Part shown: piece by piece, positions 11,521 through 18,729 of the stretch
Position numbering within the stretch: the first letter of the stretch is position 1
How the letters are laid out: every line of letters starts with the position of its first letter
Source of the DNA: Nitrospirae bacterium CG2_30_53_67
GTDB taxonomy: Bacteria > CG2-30-53-67
DNA length: 22,882 nucleotides
Assembly (NCBI GenBank): GCA_001873285.1
Contig: MNYV01000146.1
Span: 1 to 22,882, forward strand
Direction of reading: 5' to 3'
Position numbers and translations under genes: made by a program
Notes under the pieces: model-generated
What the model was told of the DNA's origin: nothing
Databases searched by the model: none
Seen by the model: only the letters and a program-made list of their open reading frames with translations

Positions 11521-13605
11521 TTAACGGGACGAGCCGTTCAGTCCCGTCAGTTTCCGGTACATCCCCACCAGCTTCTGCGGCAGGGATCGGATATCTTCCA
11601 GAACCAGAAAGTTCCCCCGCTCAAAGATAGTGGGAAGATATTCCCTTGCCTCGGTGTCTACGGTGATGCAATAAGACTGGATGCCTGAGGCCCTCGCTTC
11701 GAGCAGGGCCTTCCTGATGTCTTCAATGCCGTATTTGCCTTCATAGACGTCAAAATCGTTGGGCTTGCCGTCGCTCAGGATGATCATGAGTTTGGTCCGG
11801 GCCCGAACGTTTTTGAGGATCCCGGTCAGATGACGGATGGCCGGCCCCATTCGGGTATAGTCCAGGGGCTTCATCCCGCCGATCCGGGCCTTGATATCGG
11901 GGCCGTAGTTCTCGTCGAACCCCTTGAGGGTAAAGAAATCACACTGTTTACGGGTCTTGCTTGAAAAACCGTAGATGGCATAACGGTCCTGGATCGCCTC
12001 CATGGCCTCACCCAGGAGCAGGAGGGCCTCGCGCTGCTGGTCCATGATCCTCATGTTCTTGACATAGGCATCGGTGGATGCCGAAAGATCGGCCAGAAAA
12101 GCCGTGGCAATCTCCTTTCTCCGCCGAGACCGTTTGATATAGATCTTCTCGGACGGCGCCACACCGGCACGGATGTCGGCCAGCGCCTCGATGAAGGCGT
12201 CATGGTCCACCTCTTCGCCGTCAATCCGCTTCCGGAGCTTCTGGTACTCGGGACGGAGGGCCATGAATTCCTTCCGGATCCTGGTGAAAAGCCGGCTTTC
12301 TCTCTGCATCAGGTTCTCGGCCCATTCCGCATCCAGCCGGTTATAGGTCCTCTCATGCAGGGTGCACCAGTCCTCGCGAAAAGAGCCGATCCGGCAGTCC
12401 CATTCGTCATAGAGGATCCCCGGTGGTCCGTCCCCCGTGTCCACATCCTCCGCTTCCGTATCGAAATCAAAATCGTCTTCTACCAAAAGGATGCTCCCGG
12501 CCTTGCGTGCGGTCCGGATCATTCCCGTGGATTCCAGTTCGTCCAGAGACTTCCTGAGGTCTTCCACATCCTCGTCCGTATCCAGAGGGCGGCTGATATT
12601 GAAATACTTGGCGATCATGCTGATCTTGTCAAACCGGTTGAGCAGAATCCCCCTCTTGGCCTCTTCTTCATCAAACTCGGTGGACTCCGGCGCGACCTTT
12701 CTCTGTGTGGTGAGTTCCTTCTGCTTCTGCTCGGCATCTTCGGCCTCTCCGTCCCCAGCGTGGCCCACGGTTTCGACTTGGATGGCCCCTCGAAGCGTCC
12801 GGAGCACGGCATTCAGGTTGATCCTTCCCCGGTAGGGCACAGGATCCACGCCCCGGTATTCACCCTCCTCTCGGTTCAGGTCTCCCATGATCCCAAGGGC
12901 GAGCCGGGCCGAATCCGTCGCCGTGCTCCCGTTTCCGATCAGGTGCAGCATCTCTTCCCGATAGGGCTCCGCCCAGGTTCTCACCCCATCCGGAAAAGGC
13001 GCAAGATTGTTATGGGGATCCAGGCTGACCCGGACAAGGGCCTCCACCCTTGCCTGCTTGGGGGACATGGATGGGATCCCGTTCCTCACTTTAAGCGAAT
13101 TCGACCTATGGGCCGCAAGAAGCCTTTTCAGCCCGCCCAGTTCATCCACAAGGCGCCGCTCCATACGAGCATCTTCAATGAGCGCAAAAAGATCGCGGAC
13201 CAGATCCGGATTTTCGATCTTTTCAAAGAGCCCGAGTACCTCAAGACTCCCGAAGCGGATCTGGCCGTACTTGTGGGCAATGATGGCCTTGTAAAAATTG
13301 AAGTTCCCATCGGCATCGGGGAATGTGTTGATTTCCTCGGGGAGAAAGATCCGTTTGAGGTCGGTGTAGGAATCCTCCGGGTCTGAAGGGACCTGTTTGT
13401 CGGCCATGCGGATCAGACCAAAGGCATACCCCTTCCCCTCCTGCCAGATCCGGTTTTCCCGCACGCTTAGGGGCTGTTTCATGAGCCCGGAGAGATATAT
13501 ATCCAAGACCTCCTGAATCTCCTGCAGGCGAACGACGCTTGAAGAAGCGTCCTGCCTCTCCCGGGAATTTCTGTTGATCGTTCTGTCAATGAATGCCTGG
13601 ATCAT
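11521..13605 (-). CDS. norD: NorD-like von Willebrand A protein (NO reductase activation)
   Basis: A 694-residue cytoplasmic protein with a long alpha-helical N-terminal part and a C-terminal VWA domain starting near residue 500. The MIDAS is visible as DLSAS (about 506-510), with the second ligand region TRMGPAIRH and the third ILSDGKPND. NorD-type VWA proteins pair with a NorQ AAA+ ATPase to insert the non-haem iron or otherwise mature NorB. The ATG at 13605 is chosen because TAGGA is then 5-6 bases upstream; the ATG at 13611 abuts it. An acidic stretch (LVEDDFDFDTEAEDVDTG) sits mid-protein. It follows norQ by about 200 bp occupied by a palindromic repeat, so it may be partly uncoupled from the nor transcript. 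Family assignment is strong from the VWA features and context. Confidence 0.9.
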   Translation of the reverse strand: MIQAFIDRTINRNSRERQDASSSVVRLQEIQEVLDIYLSGLMKQPLSVRENRIWQEGKGYAFGLIRMADKQVPSDPEDSYTDLKRIFLPEEINTFPDADGNFNFYKAIIAHKYGQIRFGSLEVLGLFEKIENPDLVRDLFALIEDARMERRLVDELGGLKRLLAAHRSNSLKVRNGIPSMSPKQARVEALVRVSLDPHNNLAPFPDGVRTWAEPYREEMLHLIGNGSTATDSARLALGIMGDLNREEGEYRGVDPVPYRGRINLNAVLRTLRGAIQVETVGHAGDGEAEDAEQKQKELTTQRKVAPESTEFDEEEAKRGILLNRFDKISMIAKYFNISRPLDTDEDVEDLRKSLDELESTGMIRTARKAGSILLVEDDFDFDTEAEDVDTGDGPPGILYDEWDCRIGSFREDWCTLHERTYNRLDAEWAENLMQRESRLFTRIRKEFMALRPEYQKLRKRIDGEEVDHDAFIEALADIRAGVAPSEKIYIKRSRRRKEIATAFLADLSASTDAYVKNMRIMDQQREALLLLGEAMEAIQDRYAIYGFSSKTRKQCDFFTLKGFDENYGPDIKARIGGMKPLDYTRMGPAIRHLTGILKNVRARTKLMIILSDGKPNDFDVYEGKYGIEDIRKALLEARASGIQSYCITVDTEAREYLPTIFERGNFLVLEDIRSLPQKLVGMYRKLTGLNGSSR

Positions 13606-13621
13606 GTACATCCTACAGATA

Positions 13622-13807: not shown

Positions 13808-14626
13808 CTAAAACACGGACGTAATCAACTCCCTGATCCCTCTCTTCACCTCGGGCTCGTCGGTAATCGGCTGCAGCATGGCCAGCTCACAGGCCCTCGG
13901 CGAAGGGATCCCGCCTTGTATCAACTGCCCGGCATAAACCAGAAGCCGGGTGCTGACCGTCTCCTCGAGTCCTTTGTCCTTGAGATTCCGGATCTTGCTC
14001 CCCAGAAGGATTAGGGAACGGGCGGTCGAGATCTCCACACCGCTTTCGTGTGCCACGATCTCCGCCTCCTTGTCCGCAGCCGGATAATCAAATTCCAGAG
14101 CCAAGAACCGCTGTTTGGTGGAGGGTTTCAGATCCTTGAGCAGGCTCTGGTATCCGGGGTTAAACGAGATCACCAGCATGAACTCATCCGGCGCCGTCAG
14201 GGTCTCCCCGGTCTTCTCTACGGGAAGAATCCTCCGGTCATCGGTCAAAGGATGGATCACCACGGTGGTGTCCTGCCTGGCCTCCACGATCTCATCTAAG
14301 TAACAGATGGCCCCGATCCGCACGGCGTGGGTCAGCGGCCCGTCGATCCAGACCGTCTCTCCGCCCTTGACCAGGTAACGCCCTACCAGGTCGCCGGCGG
14401 TGAGATCATCGTGGCAGGCCACGGTCACCACCGGCCGTCCCAGACGATGCGCCATGTACCGTATGAACCGGGTCTTTCCGCAGCCGGTCGGCCCTTTGAG
14501 CATGAGCGGGAGCTTCTTCCGGTAGGCGGTTTCAAATACCACCGCCTCGTCCCCGATGGGGATGTAATAAGGCATGGCTTGTTCCGGACTCTCCACTTCG
14601 TCGGCCTGTTCAAGATAGGATTTCAT
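13808..14626 (-). CDS. norQ: NorQ/CbbQ-type AAA+ ATPase (MoxR family)
   Basis: A 272-residue ATPase that works with NorD to activate NO reductase. Walker A is GPTGCGKT at 45-52 and Walker B is ICYLDEI at 107-113. The conserved NorQ/CbbQ substrate-loop region [17 protein letters not shown] (about 68-84) and the sensor-like VISFNPGYQ (152-160) are present. The start at 14626 is decided by AAGGAGA about 7 bases upstream; the longer in-frame start at 14647 would put this Shine-Dalgarno inside the gene. It lies between norB and norD, the usual norCBQD order. An 82-bp gap to norB contains a small palindromic repeat. Assignment to NorQ rather than a Rubisco CbbQ is by context, with no Rubisco gene here. 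Confidence 0.93.
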
Positions 14627-14729: not shown

Positions 14730-16061
14730 TCACGCCGCCCGTTTTACCCCGCCCTGGAAAAAGGCCTTGACAAAGTACAGGACACCGACGGCAAAGACAA
14801 CCCCTCCGGCAAGGCGGATGGCATAGAAGAGCCACATTTGGTTCTGCACCACCATGAACGGCATGTGGTTGTAGCGTTCCATAAAGGATTGCACGACCCC
14901 TGCGCCGAACAGGGCCAGGGTCATATCGGACATGCCGATGACCATGAGCCAGAAAGCGGTGAGCGCAGTCCGCTTGTCAAAGCCGTCTTTACCCTTCATA
15001 GCCGGAATGGCATAGGCCATCATGGCGAGATTGATCATGGCATAGGCGCCGAAAAAGGCCAGATGGCCATGGGATGCCGTGATCTGGGAACCGTGGGTAT
15101 ATCGGTTGATCTGAGGCAGGGTATGCATGAGCCCCCAGATACCGGCCCCCAGAAAGGCAAAGATCGCGCAGCCAAGGGTGAAATAGATGGCGGCCCGGTT
15201 CGGATGCGCGCGGCCTGCCTTCTCCATCATGGCAAAGGCATAGATGGTCATGCCCAGGAAGGCAAAGGGTTCAGCGGCCGAGAAAATCCCGCCGATCCAG
15301 AGCCAGTAAGAAGGATACCCTTCCCAGTAATAGTGATGGCCGGTCCCCAGGATGCCTGAGAAAAAGGTGATCCCCACGATCACATAGAGCCATTTCTCGA
15401 GGACCTCCCGGTCCACGCCGGTCAGCTTCAGGAGCAGGAAGGAAAGCATAGCGCCCATGATCAGCTCCCAGACCCCTTCCACCCAGAGATGCACGGTCCA
15501 CCACCAGAAGTACTTGTCCACGGAGAGATTACGATAAGCGCCCACATGGTTCCCCAGTGCCGGGAGAAAGAAGAGCGCCGCCCCTACCAGTCCCATGACC
15601 AGCACGATCTGAACCGAGGTCCACTTTCCGCCCTTTATGATGGTCATGATGATATTCAGGACAAAGGCCAGGACCACGACCGTGATCGCCAGTTTGATGA
15701 TGAAGGGCTGCTCCAGGAACTCACGTCCGTCGGTTATTCCGAAGAGATACCCGACGATGGCAGCCACGCCGCCGATCACGAATCCCGCGAGGTGGATATT
15801 GGCCAGGGCCGGGCTCCAGACCTCGGTCTCGGACTCCTCCACCACGAGGTAGTAAGAGGCGCCCATAAACCCGATGAGGATCCAGACGATGAGCAGATTG
15901 ATGTGAATGGTCCTCATGACATTAAAATCAATGACCTGATAAAAGAAATCCGGAAAAACATACTGGATGCCGATCCAAAGCCCGGCAATGACCTGAAGCA
16001 CTAAAAGCAATAGGGCCACGACAAAATGATTGTAGGCCACACTCTGGGTCTTGTATTTCAT
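14730..16061 (-). CDS. norB: Nitric oxide reductase large subunit (cNOR type)
   Basis: The membrane-bound catalytic subunit that reduces two NO to N2O at a haem b3/non-haem iron centre. At 443 residues with 12 predicted helices it lacks the N-terminal extension of quinol-dependent qNOR. Key residues are all present: H53 (TIHIN) for low-spin haem b, H191 and E195/E199 in [12 protein letters not shown]242-H243 in [11 protein letters not shown]331 and H333 in ASHGHLAF, and E264 in the [10 protein letters not shown] helix. Three histidines plus E195 give the FeB site typical of NorB rather than an oxidase CuB site. AGGAGG precedes the ATG at 16061 and overlaps the norC stop codon, so translation is likely coupled. 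It is the second gene of norCBQD. Confidence 0.97.
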
Positions 16062-16073
16062 TCTGACTTCCTC

Positions 16074-16697
16074 CTATAGGGTTTTGAGATAGGCGGTGAT
16101 TGCCTGGATCTCTTCATCTTTGAATCCGAAAATGGGCATGATGGACTCCGGATTCACAGACTTCGGGTCTTTCAGCCTCTTATGAAGCGTATCGGGATCC
16201 AGTCTCTTGGTCACGCCGGTGAGATCCGGCCCCACGGTCTGCCCTACACCCTTGATCTTATGGCATGAGGTGCATCCCTTTTCCGTAACCAGTCTCCTCC
16301 CTTCCTCGACCTCGTGGTCAGCCGCAGTTTTCTGGACCGGTTTGGAAGCAGTCATACCCGGTTCCGCCGCTTCTGCCTCTACGGCCTTTGCCGGCCTTGG
16401 CGGCCAGTTGTGGGTATCGATCTTGTCGATCCACTCGAAGAAGGCAATCAGATGGCTGATCTCTTCATCCGAGAGGTGCAGGTTGGGCATCTTTCTCTGG
16501 CCTTTGGCCTTCTCGATCCCGCCATACCAGACCTTGACCGGGTCCTTGAGAAAGGCCCGGATAAAGTCCGGCCCTTTCTGGCTGTAGATATCCTTGAGTT
16601 CCGGTGCGTAGTATGCGCCCTCCCCCACGAGGGTATGGCAGCCGATGCAGTCGTACTTTTCCCAGACCTTCTTGCCCGAGATGACGTCGTCCGTCAA
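16074..16697 (-). CDS. norC: NorC-like dihaem cytochrome c, haem-bearing part of an interrupted norC
   Basis: The electron-entry subunit of cNOR. The first domain matches NorC: SGKKVWEKYDCIGCHTLVGE with haem motif CIGCH at 17-21, GAYYAPEL, axial-Met candidate M70 in KMPNLHLS, and the NorC-like ending KIDTHNWPP. A Pro/Ala/Glu linker (about 100-125) joins a second cytochrome c domain with CTSCH at 142-146 and M187, which ordinary NorC of about 150 residues lacks. The only start in this open frame before the haem is a TTG at 16697 with poor ribosome binding and no signal peptide. The membrane anchor is encoded in the same frame just upstream but is separated by a TAA at 16704-16706. As written, the haem domains would stay cytoplasmic, so this is a nonsense-mutated gene, an unusual readthrough case or a sequence error. 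Confidence 0.85.
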   Translation of the reverse strand: MTDDVISGKKVWEKYDCIGCHTLVGEGAYYAPELKDIYSQKGPDFIRAFLKDPVKVWYGGIEKAKGQRKMPNLHLSDEEISHLIAFFEWIDKIDTHNWPPRPAKAVEAEAAEPGMTASKPVQKTAADHEVEEGRRLVTEKGCTSCHKIKGVGQTVGPDLTGVTKRLDPDTLHKRLKDPKSVNPESIMPIFGFKDEEIQAITAYLKTL

Positions 16698-16703
16698 ATT
16701 CTC

Positions 16704-16817
16704 TTAATGCGTATAATCCTTGATGGTCGACATGGTATGGATCGACAATGCAAAAAAGATTACCAGACAGGCCATGGTCCCGATGAAGAACCAGTTCCTT
16801 GCAGTATTTTTGGTCAT
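16704..16817 (-). CDS. norC: NorC N-terminal membrane anchor, 37-codon ORF ending at TAA
   Basis: The ATG at 16817 has an excellent AAGGAG 8 bases upstream. The peptide begins MTKNTARNWFFIGTMACLVI and continues to a hydrophobic helix ending FFALSIHT, which is the typical NorC start (Arg-Asn, then one transmembrane helix, then a short periplasmic stretch). It ends DYTH and a TAA. Two codons after the TAA, in the same frame, begin the residues that precede the first NorC haem. Whole NorC would therefore run 16817 to 16074 with a single internal stop. Too short to be a separate known protein; I read it as the 5' part of norC. Confidence 0.8.
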   Translation of the reverse strand: MTKNTARNWFFIGTMACLVIFFALSIHTMSTIKDYTH

Positions 16818-16912: not shown

Positions 16913-16928
16913 CTACGAGCCATCGGCC
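16913..16928. other. Small conserved hairpin element, copy 1
   Basis: CTACGAGCCATCGGCC contains GCC-ATC-GGC, a 3-bp stem on a 3-nt loop. The same element occurs at 21568-21583 as CTACGAGTCATCGACC, where the two differences preserve base pairing (GTC-ATC-GAC). Function unknown. Confidence 0.4.
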
Positions 16929-16944
16929 CTTTAGCGGGTAAGAA

Positions 16945-17104
16945 GGGGTCGAGGGTTCCAGGGGTCAAGGGGTCAAGTGAAATACTGAAACGCAAGCAAA
17001 ATCTCCAGATAAAAACACTGGAACCCTTGAAACTTAGGACCCTCTGCCCCTTATGTTTTTAGCACTTCACTTGGCCCCTGGAATCCTTGACCCCTTGACC
17101 CCTG
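16945..17104. repeat. Palindromic GGGGTCAAG-type dispersed repeat, copy 2
   Basis: The left arm contains GGGTTCCAGGGGTCAAGG and GGGGTCAAGTGAA; the right arm contains TTCACTTGGCCCCTGGAATCC-like and CCTTGACCCCTTGACCCC-like words in mirror order. The centre shares a GAAACTTAGG word with copy 1 at 3061-3208. The arms point inward with CAAGTGAA/TTCACTTG. It occupies the norC upstream region. Confidence 0.75.
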
Positions 17105-17232
17105 ATGTTTTCATCCACTCTTTTGAAGATGATCCTTATTTTTGGGGTCTCTTTAATAATGCCATTGCAAAAAAGGCAATCTTGGGCTATAAACTTACCA
17201 TTGATTTATAGCATTGGCAAGTCAACTCCACA

Positions 17233-17341: not shown

Positions 17342-17752
17342 ATGGATAGATTCGTAAAAAGATTTATTTTCATGGGGATTCTCTACCTGATGATCGCAAG
17401 CGTCCTGGGAGCGGCCATGATGGTTTTTCCGGTATCGGCAAAACTGCGCTTTGCCCATGTCCACCTGAACCTTCTCGGATGGATGTCCATGATGATCTTC
17501 GGGGTGGGCTATCATATCCTCCCCCGCTTCACCGGACGCCCCCTCTACAGCAGCCGCCTCGGAGAAATCCAGTTCTGGCTCGCCAATATCGGACTGATCG
17601 GCATGGCGCTGATCTCCATGACCGGACAGATAACGCCGGATAAGCCGCTTTTCCCGATCTTTATCATTTCAGGTCTTGTGGAGGTACTCTCCATCTTCAT
17701 CTTCTGCTACAACATGATCATGACCGTCTTTGTGAAAGGCGAGGCGGTATGA
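17342..17752 (+). CDS. Small haem-copper-oxidase-like (NorB/CcoN-related) membrane protein
   Basis: A 136-residue protein with four hydrophobic helices (about 9-30, 38-60, 77-95, 103-128). RFAHVHLNLLGWMSMMIFGV at 36-55, with H39, H41 and later H58, resembles the second helix of haem-copper oxidase subunit I and NorB (compare [11 protein letters not shown] in the NorB encoded here). It is far too short to hold an active site, so it is not an oxidase on its own. A role in haem binding, NO sensing, or assembly and electron supply for the neighbouring NorB is possible. AGGAGG lies 10 bases before the ATG. It is transcribed divergently from norCBQD under a promoter matching that of the DUF1858 operon. 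Family resemblance is moderate; function is unknown. Confidence 0.75.
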   Translation: MDRFVKRFIFMGILYLMIASVLGAAMMVFPVSAKLRFAHVHLNLLGWMSMMIFGVGYHILPRFTGRPLYSSRLGEIQFWLANIGLIGMALISMTGQITPDKPLFPIFIISGLVEVLSIFIFCYNMIMTVFVKGEAV

Positions 17753-18169: not shown

Positions 18170-18448
18170 TTAGGCCACCCTTTGGATTTCTTTTCCCTCA
18201 TACTCCGGAAACATGATGATGGCAGGATGGACATCAAAGGCTTTTGCGATCTGCTCCACACGTTTTTTGCCGATTTCCACCTTGCCGTTTTCCAAGAGGC
18301 TGATATTGGTTGCGCTGATGCCGGAGCGCCTGGCAAGTTCCGCCTGGGTCCAGCCTTTCAGTTCCCGAAGCATCCGAATGACCTCACCGGTCGTCAGTTT
18401 TGCATGAGGTTTTGCCGGTACAAATTCAGCACGCTTACGAGCTTTCAT
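18170..18448 (-). CDS. higA: XRE-family antitoxin, HigA-like
   Basis: A 92-residue DNA-binding antitoxin. A Cro/CI-type helix-turn-helix is plain at about 21-70: TTGEVIRMLRELKGWTQAEL followed by ARRSGISATNISLLENGKVE and the RVEQIAKAFDVHPA helix. The ATG at 18448 has AGGAGA 6 bases upstream. The longer open frame back to 18649 is only antisense-like extension into the toxin gene. It begins 8 nt after the toxin stop codon, in toxin-first order, as in higBA. It should neutralise the toxin and repress the shared promoter, whose spacer contains an inverted repeat. Confidence 0.9.
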   Translation of the reverse strand: MKARKRAEFVPAKPHAKLTTGEVIRMLRELKGWTQAELARRSGISATNISLLENGKVEIGKKRVEQIAKAFDVHPAIIMFPEYEGKEIQRVA

Positions 18449-18456
18449 ATGTTCTC

Positions 18457-18729
18457 CTAATAGTTGTGCGGCGTTATTTCCAAAACAAGAACCGTGACTA
18501 TTTCCCTCTTCACGGTATAGATGACCCTGTATTGCAGACTCAGACGCGAAGACCGCTGCTCCCCTCGCTTCCCTTTCAGCTTCTCGTCGTGGAACCAAGG
18601 GAAGGCTCTCAACTTTTCTGGCCCATGCCTGAATACAATGTCCTTCCACAGCTCGTATTTCTTAACAACCGCCGGTGGAAGCCCGCGGCAGATTTTTGCA
18701 ATCTCTCGATGCTCTTTTATGCGCCACAT
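18457..18729 (-). CDS. higB: RelE/HigB-like toxin
   Basis: A 90-residue ParE/RelE-superfamily protein, predicted to be a ribosome-dependent mRNA interferase as in HigB/RelE relatives. It has N-terminal helices followed by the beta-sheet core with the recognisable GKRGEQRSSRLSLQYRVIYT (about 53-72) and C-terminal VLEITPHNY. The basic residues and the C-terminal His are typical of active members, though catalysis cannot be proved by eye. The ATG at 18729 has no Shine-Dalgarno. A strong promoter places the transcript start within a few bases of the ATG, so it is probably leaderless or nearly so. The upstream promoter overlaps the first unit of a tandem repeat. Confidence 0.88.
   Translation of the reverse strand: MWRIKEHREIAKICRGLPPAVVKKYELWKDIVFRHGPEKLRAFPWFHDEKLKGKRGEQRSSRLSLQYRVIYTVKREIVTVLVLEITPHNY

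Follow-up and report, generated by a model that had tools for sequence, protein, structure and literature searches.

Introduction

Can a norC gene that carries a stop codon within its reading frame still provide NorB with a partner, or has the NO reductase of this organism been switched off? The question is raised by the window, by which we mean the whole 22,882-nucleotide stretch of DNA analysed here. A previous sequence-only reading described its norC as split by one in-frame TAA at 16704-16706 between the membrane anchor and the haem domains, and left three options for the origin of this stop, namely a recent nonsense mutation, stop readthrough or recoding, and a base-call or assembly error. 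It is argued below that a recent nonsense allele inactivating the NO reductase is the likely explanation, and the other options are weighed where the evidence bearing on them is given.

Results and Discussion

The norC gene lies on the minus strand and runs from ATG 16817, which has TAAGGAG upstream, to its normal end at 16074. Retranslation shows that both the coordinates and the description given earlier are right: the TAA at 16706-16704 is the sole in-frame internal stop, and neither a second stop nor a frameshift is found. The translated frame (window:16074-16817:-) reads MTKNTARNWFFIGTMACLVIFFALSIHTMSTIKDYTH, then the internal stop, then ENLTDDVISGKKVWEKYDCIGCH and onwards to LKTL and the terminal stop. 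On the basis of translation, hydropathy and homology, the 5' part (16704..16817, minus strand) comprises the start codon, a single transmembrane anchor of 37 codons and the in-frame TAA. Beyond the TAA the homologous frame resumes and stays open to 16074, as had been claimed, and translation and homology assign to this continuation (16074..16703, minus strand) the NorC haem-c domain with the site CIGCH, a linker, a second C-terminal haem-c domain with the site CTSCH, and the normal stop. Of the features expected of the NorC of a cytochrome c-type NO reductase (cNOR), the window thus has the N-terminal transmembrane anchor, the CxxCH haem-c domain following it and the position adjoining norB, while the continuous single reading frame is interrupted at 16706-16704.

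Directly downstream of norC is norB, encoding the catalytic subunit of the cytochrome c-type NO reductase (14730..16061), followed by norQ, an AAA ATPase of the CbbQ/NirQ/NorQ type (13808..14626), and a norD-type gene for a VWA-domain protein (11521..13611), all on the minus strand and assigned by homology. The view that these three genes are intact was upheld, as all are uninterrupted, norD over the part that was tested, with identities to the nearest relative of 97% for norB, 89% for norQ and 83% for that part of norD. The gene belongs to a cytochrome c-type NO reductase operon of the ordinary kind, norCBQD. On the other side, a divergent gene for a small COX1-like membrane protein (17342..17752, plus strand; homology) is a neighbour of norC that is conserved in relatives. 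Between norC and this ORF, at 16927-17143, there is a dispersed MITE- or REP-like repeat with inverted arms (GGGGTCAAGGGGTCAAG type), of which the window's genome holds dozens of copies (roughly 79-94% identity) and a genome of the same genus, G001, holds many. Further along, at 18170-18729, an HTH and RelE-like pair resembles a toxin-antitoxin module, and one stretch of it is 96% identical in G001.

The codon at the stop can be compared with that of four close relatives with an intact gene, three genomes of the same family and the MAG Syntrophobacterales bacterium GWC2_56_13 (locus L033), a comparison that had been proposed as a check. In all four, NorC is one uninterrupted frame of 240-246 residues and norC stands directly before norB. 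The window NorC is 74% identical to that of L033, the closest relative. In the alignment, the codon corresponding to the TAA (16704..16706, minus strand) is TCA in L033 and TCC, TCG and TCG in the other three, that is, serine in every case, and TAA is one base apart from TCA. The residues flanking the stop align without gaps to the single-ORF NorC of the relatives, with no indel at the stop. Because the parts on either side of the stop both align in this way, chance cannot account for the open frame. A wider search, with the family alignment as query against 290 genomes (E ≤ 1e-25), gave norC matches in 12, and only in the window's genome does a stop fall inside the match. One further candidate, a TAA in G007, was rejected since it is the normal end of that gene, which the match had overrun. 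No second norC was found elsewhere in the window's genome.

Comparison with a structurally known protein places the gene further. The anchor and the haem-c domain of the L033 protein align with NorC of the Pseudomonas aeruginosa cNOR (PDB 3o0r chain C) over residues 2-142, with E = 7e-35. The window copy departs from this protein by the stop between anchor and haem domain, and NorC of the window's family by a further haem-c domain at the C-terminus, about 80 residues long. This extra domain (16074-16390 in the window), with the CTSCH site that the sequence-only reading had missed, recurs within the family and in a distant genome (L119); both haem-c sites are present in NorC of the close relatives and in L119, the one distant genome inspected. 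Literature searches gave no description of a NorC form with an extra C-terminal haem-c domain, and no papers on premature stops in norC were found in the open literature searched.

We now consider what would be made from the interrupted gene. The only close start past the TAA is TTG 16697, six bases beyond the stop, with at best TAAG nearby upstream. The piece after the stop opens hydrophilic: the best 19-residue hydropathy within its first 80 residues is 0.27, compared to 2.04 in the anchor, and no signal peptide or other export signal is evident. The earlier description of a TTG start with poor ribosome binding and no export signal is thereby confirmed. This piece contains both haem-c sites, CIGCH belonging to NorC proper and CTSCH to the extra C-terminal cytochrome c domain. 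Attachment of haem c to cytochromes c occurs in the periplasm, and a piece that is not exported cannot receive it.

These observations also bear on the idea that NorC is naturally two proteins here, one a peptide with the anchor and the other the cytochrome. The position of TTG 16697 just past the stop would permit reinitiation, but all intact homologues are one ORF, and the downstream piece has a weak ribosome-binding site and lacks a signal peptide. Homologues with the anchor and the haem protein in separate genes, which would have spoken against a disrupted gene, were not seen, and we have rejected this architecture as having next to no chance of being correct.

With a nonsense allele, the sequence of events would be as follows. 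In the sequenced population, the serine codon conserved at this place, past the anchor and ahead of the first haem domain, would have become TAA through one base change, and translation would yield no more than the 37-residue anchor. Were ribosomes to reinitiate at TTG 16697, the resulting cytochrome would lack an export signal and could not be supplied with haem c, which is attached in the periplasm. NorB would be left without its electron-delivering partner and the NO reductase would be off. As to the question posed previously of how NorB gets electrons, should the TAA be real, the simple answer is probably that it gets none. In Ensifer meliloti, norC mutants have practically nil NO consumption (PMC4064527), and loss of NO reductase activity would likewise be the expected outcome of the TAA. 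Both the presence of the change in actual cells and the loss of activity are, it should be noted, steps that we infer. That the enzyme works in spite of the broken gene, with some NorC made by readthrough or with NorB fed via another anchored cytochrome, appears highly improbable.

Recoding and readthrough were among the options offered originally, and neither found support. In a 332-kb sample of the window's genome, TAA terminates 69 of the 178 long frames (at least 300 codons), and none of the 37 tRNAs of the genome (ARAGORN, all read) has the TAA-reading anticodon TTA. General reassignment of TAA, or a suppressor tRNA, is excluded, since TAA is a regular terminator and no tRNA reads it. As to programmed readthrough, for which a stop conserved among orthologues would be expected, no other norC found has a stop; because it is conserved in no relative, nothing supports this mechanism. 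The remaining version, in which readthrough gives enough full-length NorC for activity, has in its favour that the frame continues into a constrained haem domain. Against it stand the absence of the stop from every relative, the lack of a suppressor tRNA and the fact that TAA is the least leaky stop codon. Nor did the 332-kb sample yield another convincing stop-interrupted gene among its highest-scoring candidates, the ten best of which proved on inspection by eye to be antisense frames or tandem genes in one frame; short upstream pieces are poorly detected by this search, and norC itself scored low in it. We accordingly give this version only a very slim chance.

The age of the change can be judged from the substitution patterns. 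Between the window and L033, dN/dS is 0.06 for norB and 0.16 for norC, and of the polarised norB changes that fall on the window lineage, 12 are synonymous and 2 nonsynonymous. Both norB and norQ still look constrained. For norC, the ratio of nonsynonymous to synonymous polarised changes is 27:11 in the window and 23:17 in L033, a difference that is not significant (Fisher p = 0.24), and relaxed selection on the window branch was rejected for this reason. As norB and norQ are constrained and norC shows no lesion besides the stop, the change is either recent or not real: either the operon was preserved up to recent times, or the base is an error and norC remains intact. Separately, in norC the region of the linker and the second haem domain (16074-16390) has dS 2.3 and dN 0.33 against L033, compared to dS 0.36 and dN 0.02 for norB, a strong divergence that may point to recombination or very rapid evolution.

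It is important to point out that the genome is a draft of 183 contigs, probably derived from a metagenome, and that one consensus base decides the stop. A scan of genome contigs gave matches from other species only. A consensus error in the assembly, with the organism having an intact serine codon and a normal NorC, would fit a draft of this kind, a single substitution and the otherwise intact and constrained norC, norB and norQ, and it would equally explain the lack of further decay in norC. Consensus substitution errors are rare, however; about one nonsense error is expected per draft genome of this size, which is fewer than the real nonsense alleles. On these base rates, which are general knowledge and not measured here, a real recent allele is favoured. 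The allele could also be real but confined to some cells, with intact norC in others and the consensus recording the stop. A recent change is compatible with such a polymorphism, and strains do get merged in genomes assembled from metagenomes; we nevertheless hold it to be improbable.

The history of the locus in the family also speaks against a mere error. In G004, a genome of the same family (L123, G004:C17:18800-22200), the conserved COX1-like and cupin genes flank a norC remnant of only the first ~56 codons; norBQD and the remainder of norC are missing from that site, and a close norB was not found elsewhere in this genome, which is 89% complete. G001 has no norC and retains a truncated norB-like fragment (L124, G001:C14:5800-8200) of about 45% identity that ends in unrelated repeat-like sequence. 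The family is thus losing the nor locus independently of the window, and the locus looks dispensable in the group. With nor lost in both genomes, a real loss of norC is plausible, and an error in the consensus, though it is the main rival and deserves to be taken seriously, is in our judgement unlikely. In the window's genome (G000), copper nitrite reductase and cytochrome cd1 gave no match. The hybrid-cluster protein (Hcp, TIGR01703), present in 5/5 other genomes of the same family, was not found in it, which may reflect an assembly gap.

Conclusions

A recent nonsense allele is thus the option of the original three that we favour: the relatives have serine, one substitution from the stop, norC shows no further lesion, and nor has been lost independently elsewhere in the family. 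The case resembles recent bacterial nonsense pseudogenes, in which one substitution creates a stop, the gene is intact in relatives, the neighbours are intact and sister lineages can do without the function. The stop is here absent from the orthologues and one step from a serine codon (TCA in the nearest), and the sole difference is the doubt whether the base in the window is real. Most simply, the stop is an ordinary finding rather than a novel route to NorC, with no bearing on translation or on the route by which NorB is supplied with electrons. If the allele is real, it would be a further example of the decay of NO reductase, in a lineage of uncultured bacteria about which little is known, and the presence of norB alone would be an unsafe basis for calling this organism an NO reducer.
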